Notes under the pieces: model-generated | What the model saw: only the letters and a program-made list of their open reading frames with translations | What the model was told of the DNA's origin: nothing | The model's database searches: none | DNA from: Antedon bifida | Lineage: Eukaryota > Echinodermata > Crinoidea > Comatulida > Antedonidae | Length of the DNA: 64,000 bases | Direction of reading: 5' to 3' | Assembly (NCBI GenBank): GCA_963402885.1 | Contig: OY727099.1 | Coordinates: 2,668,501 to 2,732,500, forward strand | Translations under genes and position numbers: made by a program | Shown here: piece by piece, positions 6,451 to 64,000 of the stretch | Layout of the letters: every line of letters starts with the position of its first letter | Position numbering within the stretch: position 1 is the stretch's first letter

Positions 6451-6817
6451 ATGTCGTTGCACATGTGCAGTAAACAATATATTAGGCACGCGACCGTTTC
6501 GTTGTTACCATGCGGTTAATTAAACTGTAACATTGTGGGCGGTCCGCGGTCTGTCGGCGAGAGTCAAGGAACCCTTGATCTCACGTCGATGCATATCCTT
6601 CTATTCTTTAATCCATGGTCTACATTGTTTTCCCTGTTATGCTTCAGTGGTTCACAAGGCTTCTAATACTTCCTCATTCAAACAAACACTCAAAATCATT
6701 GAACCAAGATATGACAATATTGTACCAGCTTTTACTACACTTATAAATAAACCATAATTATTTCCGGGAGGAAATTTGAGACTATGTACTAATACTAGTG
6801 GTATAACTGTGTTAAGT

Positions 6818-9800
6818 ATGTTACCATCATGTGTGCCACTAAATACATGTTGTTACCAGGTACTATTACTTACTATAATCATAGTTTATACTACAACCGG
6901 TGAACTTCTAGGTCAACGAGGACCGAATCTGACTGTTACTGACGTAAATGACTGGCCCAGGGCTAGTGAATTTTTTAACAACTTCGGATTGCCATCTAAA
7001 CCTTTAGTTGCAAGAGGAGTCGGAGTAAAATCGCCTGCTTTTAGGCTATGGACAGACGAATATTTGAGGCAACATGTTGACAATGAAATGATTGTTACTG
7101 TGGAGAGGGAGAAGAAAGAGGACAGGCAAAATGGCATCGCTGAAGGGCTCACATTTGACGAATTCTTGTCAAGGTATCAGAAAGAACAAATGTATATGGT
7201 ACAAGATATTCCAGAAACGCTAAAGTAAATTACATGTTGTTTCCTATCTCTAGTTAAAAAAAGAGTCATTTCTACTATTAATCACATAGTAGGCATATAT
7301 AGAAATTAGAGCCATACTACAAATTAGGAAATTTAGTTAAGACGATATTTATTGCAATAACTCGACCATTATTCATAATAACAATAGAAATTCCTCATTG
7401 AATCCATGCATAGAACTACTAGAACAATAGGCCTTTTCCAGTAGGCCTACAGTATTTGGAAATACCCGCTTACATTGATTATCCGATCAAGCACAGTAAA
7501 AACATTCATGTAGAACAGAAAGTTATTAAAAATTCAGCTAAATTTTGTAAAAGTCTATTAATATCCTTGAAGAAACTGTTTTAGCGCTTATTATAAACAT
7601 AATATTTTTGTCTTACCTTAGGAAAGATGTGATTGTACCTGCACCTCTTCAGTGTCACGTGATGAGTGATAGTATAGCAATATCGGTAATGTTTTAACCT
7701 GCTAATATTACTAATTATTAAACAATTGATGATTTACCATAATTCTAGTTTCCTGTTCGATTTTTATGTACAGATTTTCCAATATCGAAGAAAGAGTAAG
7801 CCTAATACAAAAAGTAACATTTGTTGTTAGTCCCCTGCACATTGACACGCTTCTGCACCGTGGACACAATTGACATTTTCTAGATTTAAACATTATTTTT
7901 AAACTTTAGTTGATGTGGTTTAGTAGTGGTGGTACATCGTCGGTTCTGCATATTGATTCAATGGATAACATAAACTGTGTGTTATCAGGCCATAAGCATG
8001 TAGTACTCATTGATAGAAAATATTCAGATAAAGTAAGTAGACAAACATATTCTGAACTGTTTAAGTGACGTTTAATGTTATATTTTCATCTTCAAAGGAC
8101 GTTTAATTTTGTTCTTCTAAACAAAATATACGTTTAATGCTTATTGTCTCATTTTCCTAATAGCGTATATGTTTTGCCATTCCTGTAAATTGTTTTTCCT
8201 GCAAATTAAAATTGTAATTATTTGATTTCTCTACAGGTGTCTTTAGACCATCCTTCTGAAAACTATTGTGGGGTAGACGTAGACAGGTAAGATTTTGAAA
8301 TAAATAATTACTATTACTACTAATACCTAAATTGAGTGAGGTAGACTAAAAAAACTAAATCGACCTATTAGTAGTGAAAAAGTCTTCTAAACACTGACTC
8401 GTATATTAATAATTCATACTACATGTACATTGTCAATCATGTAATATAAAGTACCGTACTTTATTTTTAAGTGTTGACTTTGATAAGTATCCTGGTCTTC
8501 TTGAAGTTGAATACTATCACGTTGATTTACATCCAGGTGATTGTTTGTTCATCCCATATCGATGGTAAGTAACAAGGTAATCCTAAAAAACTACTTCGAG
8601 ATTGTCATTGATTGTGAAGTAATAGCATCAGTAGGCATTGACTGACTGTACTGTCCCATGCACCGATTCTGCAGCTGTCGCTAGATAGATTATAACTGAC
8701 TATTGACAGTCATCTAAATACGAGTCTAGGTGTATTAAGTACTGTAACTTCCAATATTTTTATTTATTTATTCTTTATATTGGGTAACCTCTTCAGTAAA
8801 AAAAACTGTTCTGCCAGAGGGCCCAATACAAAGCAAAAGAAACTACCTAATAATACCTACACAACTAAAATGATTAAATCATTTAAATCATCATTTAAAT
8901 GTCCTGCCTGAAGTATCCATCCACGGTGTTAAAACAATCATGGTCAGATATATACTATACTGTCTGAAGTTGAGTTTGCCACTGATTAGGAACCTACCAT
9001 CTATTTATAGGTTTCATCAGGTACGTTCTTCTCAAGAAAGAAACATCGCAGTTAACGTATGGTGGAAACATTATACAATGAAGAAACAAAACTTTGGTCA
9101 ATGTTTGGATATTCCACCAGAAGAACTTAAAACGTTCGATAAATTCACGCTGGCGGGAATGGATAATACGTTTGACGAATTGGATTTAATTAGGTAATTT
9201 TCTTTGCAGGGAGTCATTTTTTATGGTTTGTTTGCCGAAAATAATATAATAATATTAAGTAAAGTAACGAACAATACCGGTACACGGTGTACCACAAACT
9301 CATATCATCGTTTACCCTTTCTATGATGTTGGCCTAATCAAGTTGCTTTTCGACGACCCCGGACCTTCTGACTATTGGCATATAGCAGTCATTATCCTTA
9401 ACAAATGTACAACATACCATATATAGTTACACTCAACTATGGATGCCCATGCATAAACTAACCAATGAGTTTTCATTCAGGGACCACGTGTTATCGGTAA
9501 CTAGAAACTATGATGGTCCAATGGAGTATGACGATTTTAAAGTATCGATCTTTAAACCACCTCCCGATGAGACGGGAAGAGAAATATTTTTCACGATGTC
9601 AGAAGAGGTACGCTAACAATTCTTATTTAAACCTCAATAGTTAAGAAAGAATTTTTAATTTACATTCTCACTATAGGACATTTCTTGGGTACACACAATT
9701 CTATTGTATTCTATTTATTTTGTATGGCGCCCTACCAAGAACAGAGCACCTACAATATTTAAATTATGTTGATACGAAGAAAAGTCTTAAGATTACATTT

Positions 9801-10709
9801 AAATAGAGGTGCCGACTTCGTTTCTCGCAAAGGCAACAGGAATTATGTTCCAGATGTGCGGAGCGGTGACAGAAAACGTTAGACCAGTAGATTAATGTAT
9901 GTACACATTGTTTTATTCCAACAGTTGTTCTTACATCTTGACGATAACTACGATGACATCATCGATTTTGAGGAAGTGTCAAGTTTGGAAGAAAGTGTAA
10001 GTAACTTGACATTTGTTATGATATTATGATGATGATATTATATTGAGAAATAGGAAGGATATCTACCCGCCCCAGGTTTTTTTCAAATATAGTTAAAAAC
10101 ATTTCTTGTACCATTCCGATCATTTTGATACCCCAAGAGAGCAGTAGATACATTTGTGATAAAAACAAAACAAATGTACAGTCTACAAAATGGTAGTTCT
10201 GGGTTTTGGATCTGACGATGTATACAAACGCTCATTGTTTAAGTTTAGGTTAAGTTAGTTTCAGCTAAAAGCAATCACCGTACTAAGTACCATAATTATC
10301 AATTGCTGGTCTTTATAACTAAGACAATCTAACAACAGGACACTGAGCTCGCCTTGTCAAGATAGGAACTCGTAACAGTCCTTTGGTCTTCGATACTTAC
10401 TTCGTCGCATTTTATCCAACTTAAATCGTACTAAAAGACTATAATTACTTGATGAAAAAGTTTATCTAAAAAAGTAAAATCTACAATTTGTGCCTATTAT
10501 GGTCTTTATAGGTGTGGCAGGAGATTTCAGTCATTTTAGGAGAGTTTACCATCAAAGTACAAGAATATGAACGTATCAGACATGAAGAGGAATGGAAGGA
10601 ACATGAGAATATGAAGAACGAATTTGAAGAAGATGAACATAAACAAGATGAAAGTATATTATTTGAAGAGCAAGTTAAAGAACATGAGAAAATGAAGGAT
10701 GAACTTTAA
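6818..10709 (+). CDS. JmjC/cupin_8 2-oxoglutarate dioxygenase with EF-hand and C-terminal KDEL (ER-lumenal)
   Basis: Nine exons: 6818-7224, 7622-7685, 7910-8032, 8237-8286, 8472-8564, 9011-9193, 9481-9607, 9925-9996 and 10512-10709; 438 residues. Residues 14-27 (QVLLLTIIIVYTTT) form a signal peptide or anchor. The JmjC core has the iron triad H171-x-D173 (SSVLHIDS) and H248 (FIPYRWFHQVRS). N177 and K186 have the same spacing as N205 and K214 (2-oxoglutarate ligand) of the asparaginyl hydroxylase FIH, so the site looks intact. Residues 355-366 (DDNYDDIIDFEE) fit a calcium-binding EF-hand loop. A Glu/Lys-rich, probably helical tail ends in KDEL (435-438), an ER-retrieval signal. I infer a lumenal protein or lysyl/asparaginyl hydroxylase; the substrate is unknown. 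The start at 6818 is the first ATG in frame before the hydrophobic segment. Alternative: a membrane-anchored variant. Confidence 0.85.
10322..10391. mobile_element. Truncated MITE-2 copy in JmjC intron 8
   Basis: Only the left end of MITE-2 is present (CAATCTAACAACAGGACAC, then GCTCGCCTTG and GTAACAGTCCTTTGGTCTT). The right inverted repeat is missing. Confidence 0.7.
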
Positions 10710-11000: not shown

Positions 11001-14000
11001 CTATGCTAAATGTTGTATATTGGGCACATATCCAAAACAAGATACATCTACAACTGTAGTTATCGATATCTTTTTCTGTTGCATTGGTGAGCCCCATTTT
11101 ATGTAGTCAGATGAATAGTTAGGGCTATGCTTAGTATCTTGACATGGATTTTGCAATGTTTTGACAATAGGGCTAGCAGGTATCCTGATTGTTGCGTATG
11201 TATAACCAGCTGTATCGTCTGCCGATAGTATATTTGACGCAATTGACACTTGTGACGCCGCAGTTGGGGATATTTTAGACTTAGTTAGTACAGATGACGG
11301 CGATACCTGTGACGATGATAGTATTTGTGACGATATTTGTGACGCACTTGACCGTCTTTGTGGCGCAGACGACACTTCTGGGGAAGATGACGGTGAGTGT
11401 GAGAAAGATACCGGAGAGTACGACACTGCACTTGAAACACCAGTTGTTGTGGATGGCGTATCTGCCGTTGACTTTGGCTGTAACGGTAACTCCGGCAAAC
11501 TAGGCCGTGTTCTCAACTCGTCAAATATCTCCTTTTCTCTCGGAGCTATTGTGTATGAGTCTTCCTTGCCATATTTTGCTTTCCATGCTAACAGCTGTAT
11601 ACATGCATAAATAAAAGAACAAAACACATGCTTTTTTAACTCTAGTTATTTTCTGTGTCTGTAATAACGTTTACAAAAGTTTGATAGTGTGCGTTTTAAA
11701 CTCTTTCAAACATTTTATATACCTTAATCATAATCTAGTAAACATTGTATGTGCATATGTATTGTTTATCAATTCCTTTCTGTCTTAACCCAATCTCAAT
11801 GTAAGTCAATAAAACATTTTTTATAATCCTTTATAACAATCATCATCTTTATCATCATCATATTTATCATCATCATCATCATCACCACCATCATTATCAT
11901 CATCGTCGTCATCATTTTATTTATCACTAACACCATCATCATCATCGTCCTCGTCATCATCATCTATTTATCATCAACACCATCTTCATCATCATCTTAT
12001 TTATCATCAACTCCATCATCATCATCGTCATCATCATCATCATCATTAAATTTTATTCCATGTTAAGAAATAGAGCACTAAGCCATTGGTACTGTAACCA
12101 TTGAAACCGCTGAAACAAATCATAATATAGGAAAGTGCACTATTAAGTACATTACGCTATCTATACTACTTAATTCAGCATTCAGAATGGTATTTGTCGT
12201 AATTTGTCAGTAGTAAACATTATCAATAAAGGTAAACTTTAATAATCGTTATCCACAATGTTCGTCTTTCGTGGGCTCGTCCCACTTTTACTGTCATATA
12301 TTCTGAATTTACATACAATACTTCCTCTTTGTAGTCAAGTTGACGTAAACGTAACGGAAGCTTTTGTTTGTATCGTGTCGTAATTGCGTCAATTCCTAAT
12401 GTATGTATTATGGTATGTCAGTACTGAGTATTGAGAATTGTAATTCAATGTAAGAGGTGTACCTTTTCTGCAACGTTTTGCGATATGATTTGATCTTCTT
12501 GCCATTTCTTGCGACACCAGCGGCTTACCGTACCGACAAGTAAAGACACGGCTAACACAGCAAAGATAATGTAGATGACCTTATCCAAATATCTTGTTGG
12601 TTTTGTTGTATTACTTATTGCTTGTTCTGGAATTAAAATGTTTTCTTGATGTTTGTACGTTTGTTTGTCTATTTTTAATTAATCTAGTTTATTCTATATA
12701 TGTATGTATAAGCAATAAAACAATACATATTGTCAATTTAAGAACAATCTTTATTGTCTATTAATCAGATAATGACAAATTTAAAATTCACATAATTCGA
12801 ACATGCAACCACCCGCTAGTAGCGACAATCATGCAGTATCGAGTTCTGACAGCAACATTGGCAACGCTTTACTGCCACTCGGAAGTTAGTGGTTCACCTT
12901 TACCATCAACAAACCTTGGTTCGAATCTCAGCGTGGTCGTTTGAATTCTGTTCCGATGAGCTCTCATATGGGAGCTCCAAGGTGCTGGAGAACGGAGCGA
13001 AGTTTAGAGGGTTAGGAGTTGAGAGACAATATTTAGGAGTAGGGTAGTAGTTATATGGCCATGTTGCCGTCAACAGACACGATCCTGCAGGATATCTATT
13101 GTCGCTACACATACGATAATTGGCTGCTACTACAGGTCTTATTATTAACATGGCATTAACATAAAAAGCCAGTTAAATTACTCATGTTTGCTACAAATGA
13201 GGTAGAAGTTTAAAGAGACTTTAATTTGAAGAAGAACTGCATTATTAACCTGTAGTTGTAACTGTTATCACTTTGCTACTGGTTTGTTTCTGATTATACC
13301 CGCCATACGTAGAGTAAGCCTCCACCAGGTATGTTGTGTCAGGTATCAGGTCGTCGAATTTAAATATTGACTTTCCATGTTTTAGCACCTATGAATGATA
13401 ACGAAATCAGTGGAGTATTTACATTCTAACGTACGTATCTGTTATACAAGCAGAAGGTTCCGAGTTCGAATCTCGGTTAAAGCAGCCTTTTCTCATCCTT
13501 ATAGATTTCCTTATCTTTATCGTATATCTATGAGTTTCAGTATATCACCGGGCGGTTTAGAAATTGCGAATTCTGATACTTATATTTAATTCCGATTTCC
13601 TTTTTGAACTCAATGTTGCTATTAGTAACAATCCTGACATTTTTACATTTAAAATCAATGTATCTGCTAATTACGCTGATATTTATATTTTATGTTGGCT
13701 AATTAAATTTCAATGATTAACAATGTTGCGTAATAAATTTCTATAGCTTAGCGATTTTGTCTAAAGCTCTGTCTACACTTTCTAACTTTATGTGACAAAA
13801 AATGTGATGTGCCCATATATGGACATGATGATGTAATATCACTACCATTATTTGGGCATATCACTACCATATTTGGGCACATCATATTTTTTTGGTCAAA
13901 CTAGTTTGATACTGTAGACAGAGCTTTCCTGTTACATACTTTCATTTATAAACGGCGTATTTACCTCTGTGTCTTCTGTTTGCTTTGACCTGTTTAGAAA

Positions 14001-15645
14001 TAGGTAGGATGTGATCCCGTACATATTTATATCCGGGTCATTCATCCTCATACGCTCTTTACTGTTTTCCTTGATGTAAGGTGTCAGCGGATACACAATT
14101 TCACCAGATATGTTCGTACTTCCTTTGGAGTTGATCAGGATTTCTAGTGGTCCCATTAAAGCTACCAAAAAATGTAATCGTTTTACTAGAACTATAAGTG
14201 ATAATCATTAGATGATCAATTAATTAAGACTTCCTAATAGGACATTTTGGAAAATATAAATGCATTCAACTACTAGTAACCATGTCATGATTTCAGATCA
14301 GGTTGAATGTCTGAATTCTATACTAGTACGCAGAAATTCTTTTTTAGAAAATCAGCGACCAATTCTAGGAAATGCTTATTGCTTATTATACGTCAGTCGA
14401 AAGCTCCAAGCTAAAAAGTACCGTACCTTCTGCCAAAATATCTTGTGTTGCTATACTTGACTCACTTTCGTTGCCTCGTGCGTAAGCCGTAACTTTAACA
14501 TACCCGTCTTGTATAGACCTACTACGAGAATACTCGACTGTCCCAAAGACTCCAATGTGACACAGAAGCTGACGTATATTTTGACACTCACTTACTGGTT
14601 TCCAACTTAAACAATGATAATACAACCTCTATTAAGGAGACACTTTCGGAACCCTGTCAAGTGTCTCCTTAATAAAGGATGCCCCCTGGTTAGTGGTTAG
14701 CAGTGTTGGAATCTATATATTATTTCCACTACCCGTTCTGTTTACGAGAAAGTGTCCCCTTATTAGAGGTGTTCCATAAACTGCTTATTTAATTATTTAT
14801 TTAATTTGTCCAAGAGGCAAACAAATCTACGCCAAGAATGGTAAAAGAGCAGATTAATTATTTTTAAAAGTTCAAATTATAAAAAAGGTAACAAGTAGGC
14901 CTATAAAAATACATAGATAATATACCTGTTATAATATTCCCCGGATTCTACCGAATACGTCACATCTGTCATATTGTCAATATCCTCAGGAGGCAGCCAT
15001 GATACAGTACTGTTCAGGTCAATTGTTTTTATTGTCACATTTCGTGGTTTGCTTATACCTGTCAACATCCATTTAACATGTGAGATGATTTCCAATTTAC
15101 AGAATTCAATTTTCAATGCGTAAATAAGCAAGTCAGGCTGTCATACTCAAATGCTCCTACCCATGTCATCCACCGTTTTTGTATATGATTTGACATGAAT
15201 ATAGTCACTGTTTTGACGATATGTTATGCGTTTTGATATACAATGTGAAAAAATAGGAACATTCAAAGTGGGATTGACTCTTAAGCTCTGTCTACACTAT
15301 CAAACTAATGTGACAAAAAAATTGTGATGTGCCCAAATATGGCAGTGGTATGCCCAAACATGTAGTGATATGACGTCATCATGCCCTTATATGGGCACTT
15401 CACATTTGTTTTGGTCACATCAAGTTTGATGATGTAAACAAGGCTTTACCAGTTATTTTAGGCAGATGTCCGTAATTTTATATACTCATTTATATCGAGA
15501 CATTTATGGGCACAAATAAAGAAAACCGTAGGTATCCAAAATACACAATGAAAAATGTAATAAAAAACAATAAATTACCTTCTGAGTTGCAGTTAAATGC
15601 GATAAATATAAGCAACACTATGATATGCATTGACCACGATTCCAT
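11001..15645 (-). CDS. Class II cytokine receptor-like (interferon/IL-10 receptor family) membrane protein
   Basis: Seven minus-strand exons: 15645-15579, 15058-14926, 14605-14427, 14161-13965, 13388-13250, 12626-12463 and 11594-11001; 490 residues. Order: signal peptide (MESWSMHIIVLLIFIAFNC, 1-22); FNIII-like D1 (KPRNVTIKTIDLNSTVSWLP, WKPVSECQ, Cys74 and Cys82, VKVTAYARGNESES); D2 (MGPLEILINSKGS, IVYPLTP, FDDLIPDTTYLVEAYS); one membrane helix (about 255-273) followed by RWCRKKW; a Ser/Pro-rich tail of about 215 residues with scattered tyrosines and a Pro-rich juxtamembrane SLPELPLQP. These are hallmarks of the tissue factor/interferon/IL-10 receptor family. Intron phases 1-2-1-0-1-0 and the one-exon-per-half-domain layout match vertebrate class II receptor genes as I know them. 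Likely role: JAK/STAT-type cytokine receptor chain at the plasma membrane; the ligand is unknown. Alternative: another two-FNIII receptor. Confidence 0.75.
11838..12050. repeat. Imperfect (ATC)n microsatellite in receptor intron 6
   Basis: About 210 bases of CAT/ATC triplets broken by TTTATTTATCATCA blocks that themselves recur. It is simple sequence in the intron between receptor exons 6 and 7. Confidence 0.9.
13400..13535 (+). mobile_element. tRNA-derived SINE (family A), degraded copy in receptor intron 4
   Basis: The B box (GGTTCCGAGTTCGAATCTCGG) and the downstream tail TTTCTCATCCTTATAGATTTCC with TTATCTTTATCG match the better copy at 44917-45030. The 5' tRNA-like half is eroded. Confidence 0.6.
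13763..13927. mobile_element. MITE-1 copy in receptor intron 4
   Basis: About 165 bp with long inverted ends (AAAGCTCTGTCTACACTTTC on the left, ACTGTAGACAGAGCTTT on the right). The interior is itself palindromic, with GTGATGTGCCCATATATGG facing ATATTTGGGCACATCA. It is one of ten copies in the window. Confidence 0.85.
14622..14772. mobile_element. MITE-3 copy in receptor intron 2
   Basis: Inverted ends ACCTCTATTAAGGAGACAC and GTGTCCCCTTATTAGAGGT. Related pieces are at 41585-41655, 42675-42750 and 61661-61810. Non-coding. Confidence 0.6.
15283..15447. mobile_element. MITE-1 copy in receptor intron 1
   Basis: Left end AAGCTCTGTCTACACTATCA, right end GATGTAAACAAGGCTTT (diverged), with the family's ATGTGCCCAAATATGG core. 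Confidence 0.8.
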
Positions 15646-16760
15646 GTTTCAGAACTAAATAAAAATCAATAATTATAATGTTAAGCTCTTGGTTTGACCA
15701 GTAACCCTATAATTCACGAGATTTTCTTTGTTTGTTTTCGAGTTTGCTCTTAAAAAATGAATATAATAGTCGAATACATCCACAAAGTATTAAGCAGGTT
15801 TTTCAATCCAAAAGAAAAAGAAGAAAAAACAAGCTTAACTGACAAAATACATGGATAATTGAACACAGCTGAAAGAAACACAAACTATCCAGTGATTTCT
15901 TTAAAATGTAATTGATAAATGACGAATGTGTTTTACGCGCACGCAAATTACGTGTCTCTCCGTTGTGCGCAGTAAAAAATACTTACTTTTTGAACAACTA
16001 CGGTAGGCATGCTTTAATAGAAGTAATGTGTTACTGTTTCTCCATTGTGTGTTTTATATTGAATGGAACAAGTAAAAGAAAAATGAAACGAGTATTTGAA
16101 AAAAGATGATTAATGGTCGATGTAATATGCGTATGCTTTAAAGTTTAATTTAAAAAGTTAAATCATAACAAATTGAAATATAAAAGCAATTAAATATGAA
16201 ACACAAAGGCCGTTAATTTATTGCGAAGTTAATAAATTGTGTTTTTATCTTCTTTCGACTCATCCACTTTGTCGGTTTTAAGTTATGTGCATTATTAATT
16301 ATCAGTTTCGATTGATCGTGATGAGTTGGTCGAGGTCAAAGTAATGGGGCTACCAGTTATGCAAAAAAACATGACACGATGAGAATGATATCGCGTGTAT
16401 TTGTATTTAAAACTAATCAGGTCACACATTTTGCTGTCTCATGTTTTATATAGAGATGGTGATTAGCTGATGTTCGCGTGTCGCACGCATTTAACACGCG
16501 ATGGAACTTTAAATGCGTTTGACTACCGCTGGACAGATTGAAATCAAATAACGGTATGCGAAATAAAGCCATGTTTTGTAGATTTTTCAGTCAATTCTGC
16601 TCACTTTTTGTGACCGGCAGTATCATTCGTTTTCGTCATCAATATAGTCAGGATGGCCTATTGGTGTATACTTAAAACATCTTTAAACAATAAACAATTA
16701 ATGTTTACAGTCCATAGTCCTATTACAATGATGTTTTCTCCCAGCATACTTTAACATGTA
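15646..16760. other. Intergenic between the receptor and the tRNA-Leu cluster
   Basis: AT-rich, no gene recognised. The left end is the receptor's presumed promoter and 5' UTR on the minus strand. A short tRNA-Leu 5' fragment (AGTCAGGATGGCC) lies at about 16646-16665. Confidence 0.45.
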
Positions 16761-16844
16761 GTCAGGATGGCCGAGTGGTCTAAGGCGCTGCGTTCAGGTC
16801 GCAGTCTACTCTTGTAGGCGTGGGTTCGAATCCCACTTCTGACA
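16761..16844 (+). tRNA. tRNA-Leu (anticodon CAG)
   Basis: 84 nt without CCA: acceptor GTCAGGA pairing with TTCTGAC plus discriminator A, D arm GGCCGAGTGGTCTAAGGC, anticodon stem-loop GCGTTCAGGTCGC with CAG, long class II variable arm TCTACTCTTGTAGGC and T arm GTGGGTTCGAATCCCAC. It closely resembles animal tRNA-Leu(CAG). Boxes A and B are intact, so it is probably functional. Confidence 0.93.
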
Positions 16845-16872
16845 TTACTCTTTTCCTATTTTACTTAAACAG

Positions 16873-17120
16873 GATATTGTATTGTCCCCAAAAAACATGA
16901 AAAATGAAGATTAATTAAATCAGACTTTCATATAAAATGACAAAATAAACTCATTGACTGGCAGCCAATTTGACTATGTTTTGCTTTAAATTACAGTTTT
17001 TCAGGTAAATAATTTTTGTTCGATTCAATTTTTGTTCAAAGTGGATAACTATTGTGTGACATTAAAATGGCATATTAAAAAAATGTAAACAATTATTCTT
17101 CAGGGGGACAATATCTATCT
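16873..17120. mobile_element. Inverted-repeat element (ATATTGTATTGTCCCC ends)
   Basis: It begins ATATTGTATTGTCCCC and ends GGGGGACAATATCTAT, roughly inverse ends. The interior word GTGACATTAAAATGGCAT recurs at about 30700 and, inverted, near 20700. Probable MITE family 4. Confidence 0.45.
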
Positions 17121-17226
17121 AATATAAGAAATATTTATCATAGGCAGCCATCTGAATCATTTATTCCATTCAGAGTTCGTAAGCTTTACCATCTGAGTGT
17201 CCTCACAAAAACTGTTTTACATTTAA

Positions 17227-17250
17227 GTCAGGATGGCCGAGCGGTAAGGT
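17227..17250 (+). pseudogene. tRNA-Leu 5' fragment fused to minisatellite flank
   Basis: AGTCAGGATGGCCGAGCGG stops in the D arm and runs straight into TATGGTATTCCTGAACAGTA, sequence otherwise found at the 3' end of the 18.1-18.6 kb minisatellite. Confidence 0.6.
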
Positions 17251-17410
17251 ATTATGCACTGGTATGGTATTCCTGAACAGTATTTATTTAGGCACATCTG
17301 ATACAACCTCAAATTTCTAATAAAAATGTTTAATTTGTTCAGTTTACACTTTTTAAACATTTAGGCTTTTCCATGGTGATGTATTTCCGCACAAAAATAA
17401 TAAGCGTGTG

Positions 17411-17468
17411 GTCAGGATGGCCGAGCGGTCTACTCTTGTAGACGTGGGTTCGAATCCCACTTCTGACA
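17411..17468 (+). pseudogene. tRNA-Leu copy lacking the anticodon arm
   Basis: The acceptor, D-arm start, variable arm (TCTACTCTTGTAGACG) and T arm are present, but the stretch from the D arm through the anticodon stem-loop is deleted, so it cannot decode. Confidence 0.8.
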
Positions 17469-17635
17469 TTATTCTTTACGTATTTTACGTTATTTTACAT
17501 ATTATATTGGACTTAAAACAAGGATTTTAAAATTAAAGTCTTTATTATAAATATCCACCTGAATCAATTTGCGTTCACAGTTCATATAGGCCTTGCCATA
17601 TATTAGCCTCACAAAACAAAAAAATTGGATATATA

Positions 17636-17719
17636 GTCAGGATGGCCGAGTGGTCTAAGGCGCTGCGTTCAGGTCGCAGTCTACTCTCGTAGGCGTGGGT
17701 TCGAATCCCACTTCTGACA
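17636..17719 (+). tRNA. tRNA-Leu (anticodon CAG), second copy
   Basis: 84 nt, differing from the 16761 gene only in the variable arm (CTACTCTCGTAG versus CTACTCTTGTAG, which keeps the hairpin). All stems are intact. About 110 bases downstream are shared with the flanks of the 17411 and 17885 copies, so the cluster grew by segmental tandem duplication. Confidence 0.93.
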
Positions 17720-17884
17720 TTACTCTTTTCGTGTTTTATGTTATTTTACATATTATATTGGACTTAAAACAAGGATTTTAAAATTAAAGTCTTTATTATA
17801 AATATCCACCTGAATCAATTTACGTTCACAGTTCATAGGCCTTGCCATATATTAGCCTCACAACACAAACAATTTGGACATATA

Positions 17885-17955
17885 GACAGGATGGCCGAGT
17901 GGTCTAAGGTCGCAGTCTACTCTCGTAGGCGTGGGTTCGAATCCCACTTCTCACA
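17885..17955 (+). pseudogene. tRNA-Leu copy with 13-nt anticodon-arm deletion
   Basis: 71 nt. GCGCTGCGTTCAG is missing between the D arm and GTCGCAG, and the acceptor 3' strand reads TTCTCAC against GACAGGA. No anticodon loop can form. Confidence 0.8.
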
Positions 17956-18119
17956 TTAACCTTTATGTACGTTATTTCACATTATATTTGACTTAAAACA
18001 AGGATTTTAAAATCTAAGTCATTATTATAAATACGTTCACAGGTCATATAGGCATTTTGGCTATATAAGCCTATTCAGGATGTTTTCATTGAGTTTTGCT
18101 AATTACACATTAATCAATT

Positions 18120-20549: not shown

Positions 20550-64000
<43,451 letters not shown>

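Follow-up and report, generated by a model that had tools for sequence, protein, structure and literature searches.

A probable class II cytokine receptor gene, and a second gene of like plan, in the crinoid Antedon bifida

Class II cytokine receptors, those of the interferon and IL-10 type, are best described from vertebrates, and the available part of one survey places the first members of the IL10R superfamily in lampreys (PMC8226699). A paper on the evolution of JAK-STAT signalling describes the purple sea urchin, in the portion of its text available, as being without an apparent cytokine receptor signalling system (PMC3296744), and a source seen in excerpt reports IL6R-like (class I) proteins from echinoderms (PMC13203501). 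An interferon-type receptor has been reported from an invertebrate, the oyster CgIFNR-3 ("IFN receptor-like 3"), which activates human reporters; the accessible text of the same paper also names it cytokine receptor-like 3 (PMC8218723), and CRLF3 is described as class I-like in the consulted part of a further source (PMC12026705). No report of an echinoderm class II receptor appeared among the matches listed in the open-access literature, a scope that leaves aside subscription journals and automatic database annotation. Here we describe a gene within a 64,000-nucleotide stretch of the genome of the crinoid Antedon bifida (contig OY727099.1, positions 2,668,501 to 2,732,500, forward strand; hereafter the window), which in all likelihood encodes a class II cytokine receptor chain, one of at least two in this animal. 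CgIFNR-3 is likened to these crinoid receptors by description only.

The gene occupies the minus strand of the window from 15645 to 11001, in seven exons at the positions that an earlier, sequence-only reading of this DNA had given them. All six introns have GT-AG boundaries, and the spliced frame comprises 490 codons. Exon 1 (15579..15645, 67 nt) carries the start codon and signal peptide and ends in phase 1 at a GT donor. The first extracellular domain (D1) is encoded by exon 2 (14926..15058; first half, phase 2 end) and exon 3 (14427..14605; second half with the cysteine pair C74-x7-C82, phase 1 end), and the second (D2) by exon 4 (13965..14161; first half, phase 0 end) and exon 5 (13250..13388; second half, phase 1 end). 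Exon 6 (12463..12626, phase 0 end) encodes the transmembrane helix and a juxtamembrane stretch, and exon 7 (11001..11594) the cytoplasmic tail and stop codon, including KEIFDEL at residues 314-320 and YVPN at 482-485. The sequence-only reading had named the intron phases 1-2-1-0-1-0 as those of vertebrate class II receptor genes; the computed phases are identical to these, and the excerpt available of a published account gives the same series for IFN receptor genes (PMC8863823). The exon plan and the domain layout of the gene are confirmed as observed. For all seven exons, a codon model trained on a neighboring MAM-domain gene ranked the annotated frame above the other two sense frames. Codon bias lends the gene model weak support, because antisense frames and stop-free intron stretches score comparably or higher under this model: an antisense frame outscores the annotated one in exon 1 (-2.4 vs -3.9), an aspartate-rich antisense frame does so in exon 7 (47.8 vs -8.9), and stop-free intron stretches score similarly (n=287, best 5.2). 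No further copy of the gene was found within the window.

By sequence, the product is laid out as a leader, a class II-type D1, a second domain of the size of a fibronectin type III (FNIII) domain, a membrane helix and a tail. The hydrophobic leader and a single clear transmembrane segment at the hydropathy maximum (about residues 251-275) indicate type I membrane topology. Cysteines occur at positions 19, 74, 82, 276, 444 and 479, and seven of the eight N-glycosylation sequons lie outside the membrane segment. The cytoplasmic tail comprises about 215 residues, eight of them tyrosines. Of the motifs that had been put forward as marks of the family, the D1 cysteine pair is present as C74/C82. 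The strand PDTTYLVEAYS, offered as the end of D2, is also present; as a mark of the family it is weak, since it also resembles an ordinary ephrin-receptor FNIII strand.

Profile and database searches place the ectodomain with the class II family. With a cut-off of 27 bits, the Pfam family Tissue_fac (PF01108) matches the protein at 45 bits (E 1.1e-11); fn3 reaches 17.3 bits (cut-off 25), and D1 taken alone scores 42.4 bits with Tissue_fac. NCBIfam yielded no match. A phmmer search of the PDB with the ectodomain (E<=10) returned nine matches, of which seven are class II receptors: IL20RA as the best (6.5e-7), three IFNAR1 sequences and three IFNLR1 sequences. The other two are ephrin receptors, with E values of 0.087 and 0.1. 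The sequence-only reading had named best matches to unrelated receptors with two FNIII domains as the outcome that would speak against it; this was not what was obtained, and ordinary FNIII domains of the same genome, described below, behave in the opposite manner.

Elsewhere in the genome, which was searched over 315,563,634 bases in 27 contigs (the window being C12:2668501-2732500), lies a second gene with this plan. The first ectodomain used as query gave five matches. Four of these are exons of the window gene itself, and the fifth is a weak match on contig C16 (E 7.9). At the latter place a gene of seven GT-AG exons runs from 12495193 down to 12491389, with intron phases 1-2-1-0-1-0 and 434 codons. 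The two ectodomains are 23% identical (blastp 58 bits). In the first and second gene, respectively, the first four introns lie at codons 23/23, 67/66, 127/127 and 193/192; the last two, at codons 239/275 and 294/328, are shifted by a longer pre-membrane stretch in the second gene. The second protein scores 43.8 bits with Tissue_fac and gives no match to fn3 up to E 10. Every one of the four PDB matches of its ectodomain (E<=10) belongs to class II: IL20RA, at 5.9e-9 in an alignment that spans both domains, IFNAR1, IFNGR1 and IL22RA1. Its hydropathy maximum at 294-316 again fits type I topology, and its tail is about 118 residues long. In all seven exons the codon model puts the annotated frame first among the sense frames; in exons 1 and 2 an antisense frame scores higher still. 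This gene was reached through a barely visible match, and for that reason its agreement with the first in phases, intron places and best matches is the strongest single argument for the assignment. Under two sets of phase frequencies, which were assumed and not measured, the ordered pattern of six phases would arise by chance with a probability of roughly 0.0013-0.0022 per gene. We regard the pattern seen in the first receptor as beyond chance, given the Tissue_fac E value of 1.1e-11 and the recurrence of the gene plan. Upstream of the second gene, the minus strand of C16 (L013 1400-2500) carries exons of a different protein that appears to cross the membrane once.

No third receptor gene was recognized with either crinoid ectodomain or with IL20RA as query in this exon-by-exon genome search, which is insensitive, because the second receptor used as query recovered its own six exons only and missed the window gene. 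IL20RA as query gave five matches, one of which is the window gene; the other four were rejected, two being titin-like tandems of FNIII domains and two chance-like.

Both crinoid ectodomains thus have IL20RA as their best PDB match (E 6.5e-7 for the first, 5.9e-9 for the second). In these alignments IL20RA shares with both proteins the D1 stretch W-x(4)-[EM]-C-x-N-I-x(4)-C, and the C-x7-C pair of D1, present in both crinoid proteins, aligns with the pair of IL20RA. It differs from them in D2, since the crinoid proteins lack the D2 cysteine pair and D2 of the first gene is not recognized when taken alone. The other class II chains matched by the crinoid ectodomains (IFNAR1, IFNLR1, IFNGR1 and IL22RA1) are too distant for orthologues to be assigned from pairwise matches alone. 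Intron phases of IFN receptor genes, as the available text gives them, equal those of both crinoid genes (PMC8863823). Taken together, the D1 profile, the PDB matches, the exon phases and the second gene of like plan support the putative membership of the first gene in the class II family, as the sequence-only reading had proposed.

Several observations weigh against this assignment. Both proteins are free of cysteines from the D1 pair to the membrane segment, and consequently have no D2 cysteine pair, a pair that is usual among vertebrate class II members. D2 of the first receptor alone scores 18.3 bits with Pfam Interfer-bind (PF09294; E 0.0028, cut-off 21), its sole PDB match is an ephrin receptor (E 0.75), and D2 of the second protein has no Pfam match. 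Searched against the genome, the D2 profile reached 19.2 bits at one place and 18.9 bits at another; neither score attains the cut-off, and neither place is one of the two receptor genes. A PDB search with the tail of the first receptor brought up no tail of another receptor, the single match being one of chance (E 1.8). The pattern FD[DEK]L, which we discuss below for the tails, is short, and one occurrence is also found in D2 of the first receptor. Searches of the genome for a ligand gave, within the same insensitive exon-by-exon scheme, one unconvincing match of the IL10 profile on C7 (E 2.46) and no match of the Interferon profile. Finally, the models of both receptor genes are predictions from genomic sequence.

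The two genome matches of the D2 profile lie apart from both receptor genes, one among immunoglobulin-like frames and the other in an FNIII frame on C8, and were set aside. The C8 place (L031 855-1743, plus strand), where FNIII-type frames give the weak match of 18.9 bits, could be another FNIII receptor. Since ordinary-looking FNIII frames reach 19.2 and 18.9 bits, the 18.3 bits for D2 do not discriminate. The D2 score proves nothing; what carries the class II assignment is D1, together with the gene plan and the second gene. In our reading the missing D2 cysteines and the poorly recognized D2 probably reflect divergence or an ancestral state. They do not count as exclusion, given that the two proteins have this condition in common alongside an intact D1 pair and the gene plan.

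An ancestral state of D2 bears on the alternative that survives best, namely that the gene encodes a class I receptor of the gp130/Domeless type, or a stem receptor that preceded the split between class I and class II; we consider it unlikely, and its second form partly overlaps with the class II reading. The absent D2 cysteines could be primitive, as would suit a stem receptor, and the echinoderm IL6R-like proteins mentioned above show that class I-type proteins have been reported from this phylum. According to the part of the source available, class I receptors likewise have a homology region of two FNIII domains together with JAK boxes, but the patterns which that part gives for the class, C-x(9-10)-C-x-W and WSXWS (PMC1963337), were found by pattern search in neither crinoid protein. 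Nor is there a class I receptor among the nine and four PDB matches of the two ectodomains.

It is very unlikely that the gene encodes an unrelated receptor with two ordinary FNIII domains, of the protein tyrosine phosphatase (PTP), Robo or ephrin-receptor kind, whose class II likeness arose by convergence. This idea draws on the ephrin-receptor-like strand at the end of D2, on the equal scores of the D2 profile on ordinary FNIII frames, and on the fact that Tissue_fac exceeds its cut-off at three further, unrelated places in the genome, one on C15 and two on C7 (31.3-33.7 bits). Passing this cut-off is therefore insufficient by itself, because ordinary FNIII domains of this genome pass it too. 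The three places were rejected as receptors, as they encode long single-frame proteins with FNIII domains and a GTPase-like part. When the FNIII domains of two of these proteins were used as controls, however, they scored 45.0 and 54.3 bits with fn3 against 33.0 and 32.3 with Tissue_fac, the reverse of the balance seen in the first receptor, and the second receptor has no fn3 match at all at E<=10. One control domain had 129 PDB matches, and the best 60 of these include titin, Robo, PTPRF, gp130, ephrin receptors and insulin receptors, with no class II receptor among them. Both receptor genes, in contrast, have class II phases and class II D1 cysteines. Together, the proteins on C15 and C7 make up a small family, whose members are very long, single-frame and of this composition.

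The matching Pfam family bears the name of tissue factor, and the protein could in principle be a tissue-factor-like, non-signaling member of the family, that is, a clotting cofactor. This seems hardly plausible: tissue factor itself is absent from the PDB matches at E<=10, where IL20RA, IFNAR1, IFNLR1, IFNGR1 and IL22RA1 are present, and the tail of tissue factor is short, unlike that of the first receptor with its eight tyrosines. The nearest sequences are indeed vertebrate, with the PDB as the only animal set compared, but vertebrate contamination or recent horizontal transfer is a practically negligible explanation: both genes lie inside large contigs of the 27-contig assembly (C16 with 19.35 million bases and C12 with at least 18.87 million), the two genes are no more than 23% identical to each other, and a palindromic repeat frequent in the window occurs in introns 1 and 4 of the first gene and intron 4 of the second.

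The source of the DNA, called a probable echinoderm in the sequence-only reading, could be narrowed to a crinoid from the mitochondrial contig of the assembly, C27 (15,844 bases). Both strands of this contig carry genes, and visual inspection places nad4L between nad4 and nad5; a rearrangement of nad4L in crinoids is reported, to judge from the title of a published paper. COX1 on C27 has in-frame TGA codons, and we compared it with PDB 7o37 in view of the echinoderm mitochondrial code table. In the alignment four of the five AAA codons stand opposite Asn and none opposite Lys; all five AAG codons fall at Lys, 12 of the 16 ATA codons at Ile and all seven TGA codons at Trp. The four AGA/AGG codons, which are paired with Ala, Thr and Gly, are uninformative. 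ARAGORN found one tRNA-Lys among 26 candidates on C27, with anticodon CTT. C27 uses the echinoderm mitochondrial code. The base frequencies on the cox1-sense strand of C27 (T 46.7%, C 11.4%, A 26.4%, G 15.4%) are close to those of the mitogenome of Florometra sp. (T 44.9, C 12, A 26.9, G 16.1), for which high T and low C are described as crinoid-specific (PMC7748595).

JAK and STAT genes, the downstream components of a class II pathway, are also present in the genome. Two STAT matches that fall inside some 700 bases of C1 (E 1.1e-12 and 1.3e-6) are read as exons of one gene. For JAK, a frame on C13 matches the FERM_F1 profile at 33.6 bits, above cut-off, and FERM_F2 at 22.1 bits, below it; of its eight PDB matches six are named JAK2, TYK2 or JAK1, one is named "tyrosine-protein kinase" and one is Nup98. 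Farther downstream, inspection by eye shows frames that resemble SH2 and kinase domains. The Jak1_Phl profile found no match in the genome, which is uninformative since FERM_F2 did detect the JAK. The C7 match of the IL10 profile was rejected as a ligand, as the surrounding frame is unlike a cytokine.

Both receptor tails share E-[IT]-F-D-[ED]-L, in the form KEIFDEL in the first and CETFDDL in the second, and near their C termini both have Y-[LV]-P-N and D-Y-[IV]. The membrane-proximal KEIFDEL/CETFDDL presumably resembles a stretch in the IL-10R2 (IL10RB) and IFNGR2 chains. From these features a scheme may be proposed in which a secreted helical cytokine would pair the long-tailed first chain with another, plausibly the shorter-tailed one encoded on C16. 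JAK would dock at KEIFDEL and CETFDDL as candidate sites, and the JAK of this genome would phosphorylate tail tyrosines. STAT would then dock at Y-[LV]-P-N or D-Y-[IV], which are candidate SH2 sites, and carry the signal. We see even chances for the wider proposal that echinoderms inherited the full class II circuit, in which long- and short-tailed chains would pair on an IL-10- or interferon-like ligand and signal through JAK and STAT; the receptor system would then have arisen in deuterostomes and not first in vertebrates, and sea urchins would have lost it afterwards, or it would have been overlooked in them.

Other features of the window were noted in passing. On the plus strand, very long tandem MAM-type repeats extend from 22662 to 64000, apparently as one gene that leaves the window at its end, with Pfam MAM found in two frames. 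A multi-exon gene lies at 6758-10709 (plus strand), where two frames match the cupin-like family PF13621 below cut-off (22.5 and 19.6 of 27.4 bits). At 16756-17974 (plus strand) a tRNA-Leu(CAG) unit with its flanks is present in four tandem copies, two of which are recognized as tRNA genes and two not. The palindromic repeat, GCTCTGTCTACACTATCAAAC ... GATGTGCCCAAATATGG, is found in many introns, those of both receptor genes included; its copies in the window lie at 13764-13936, 15281-15456, 26386-26645, 36525-36671, 56273-56437 and 58405-58545, and a further one lies at the second-gene locus (C16; L012 about 7130-7260).

The presence of two class II genes in a crinoid, identified by comparison of sequence and exon structure, suggests that the class II family predates the split between echinoderms and chordates. 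Two such genes with the vertebrate exon plan would take the origin of interferon and IL-10 receptors back to the common ancestor of both groups. The crinoid pair would provide concrete receptors with which an ancestral ligand may be sought, and the origin of interferon signaling would thereby become testable in a living invertebrate.

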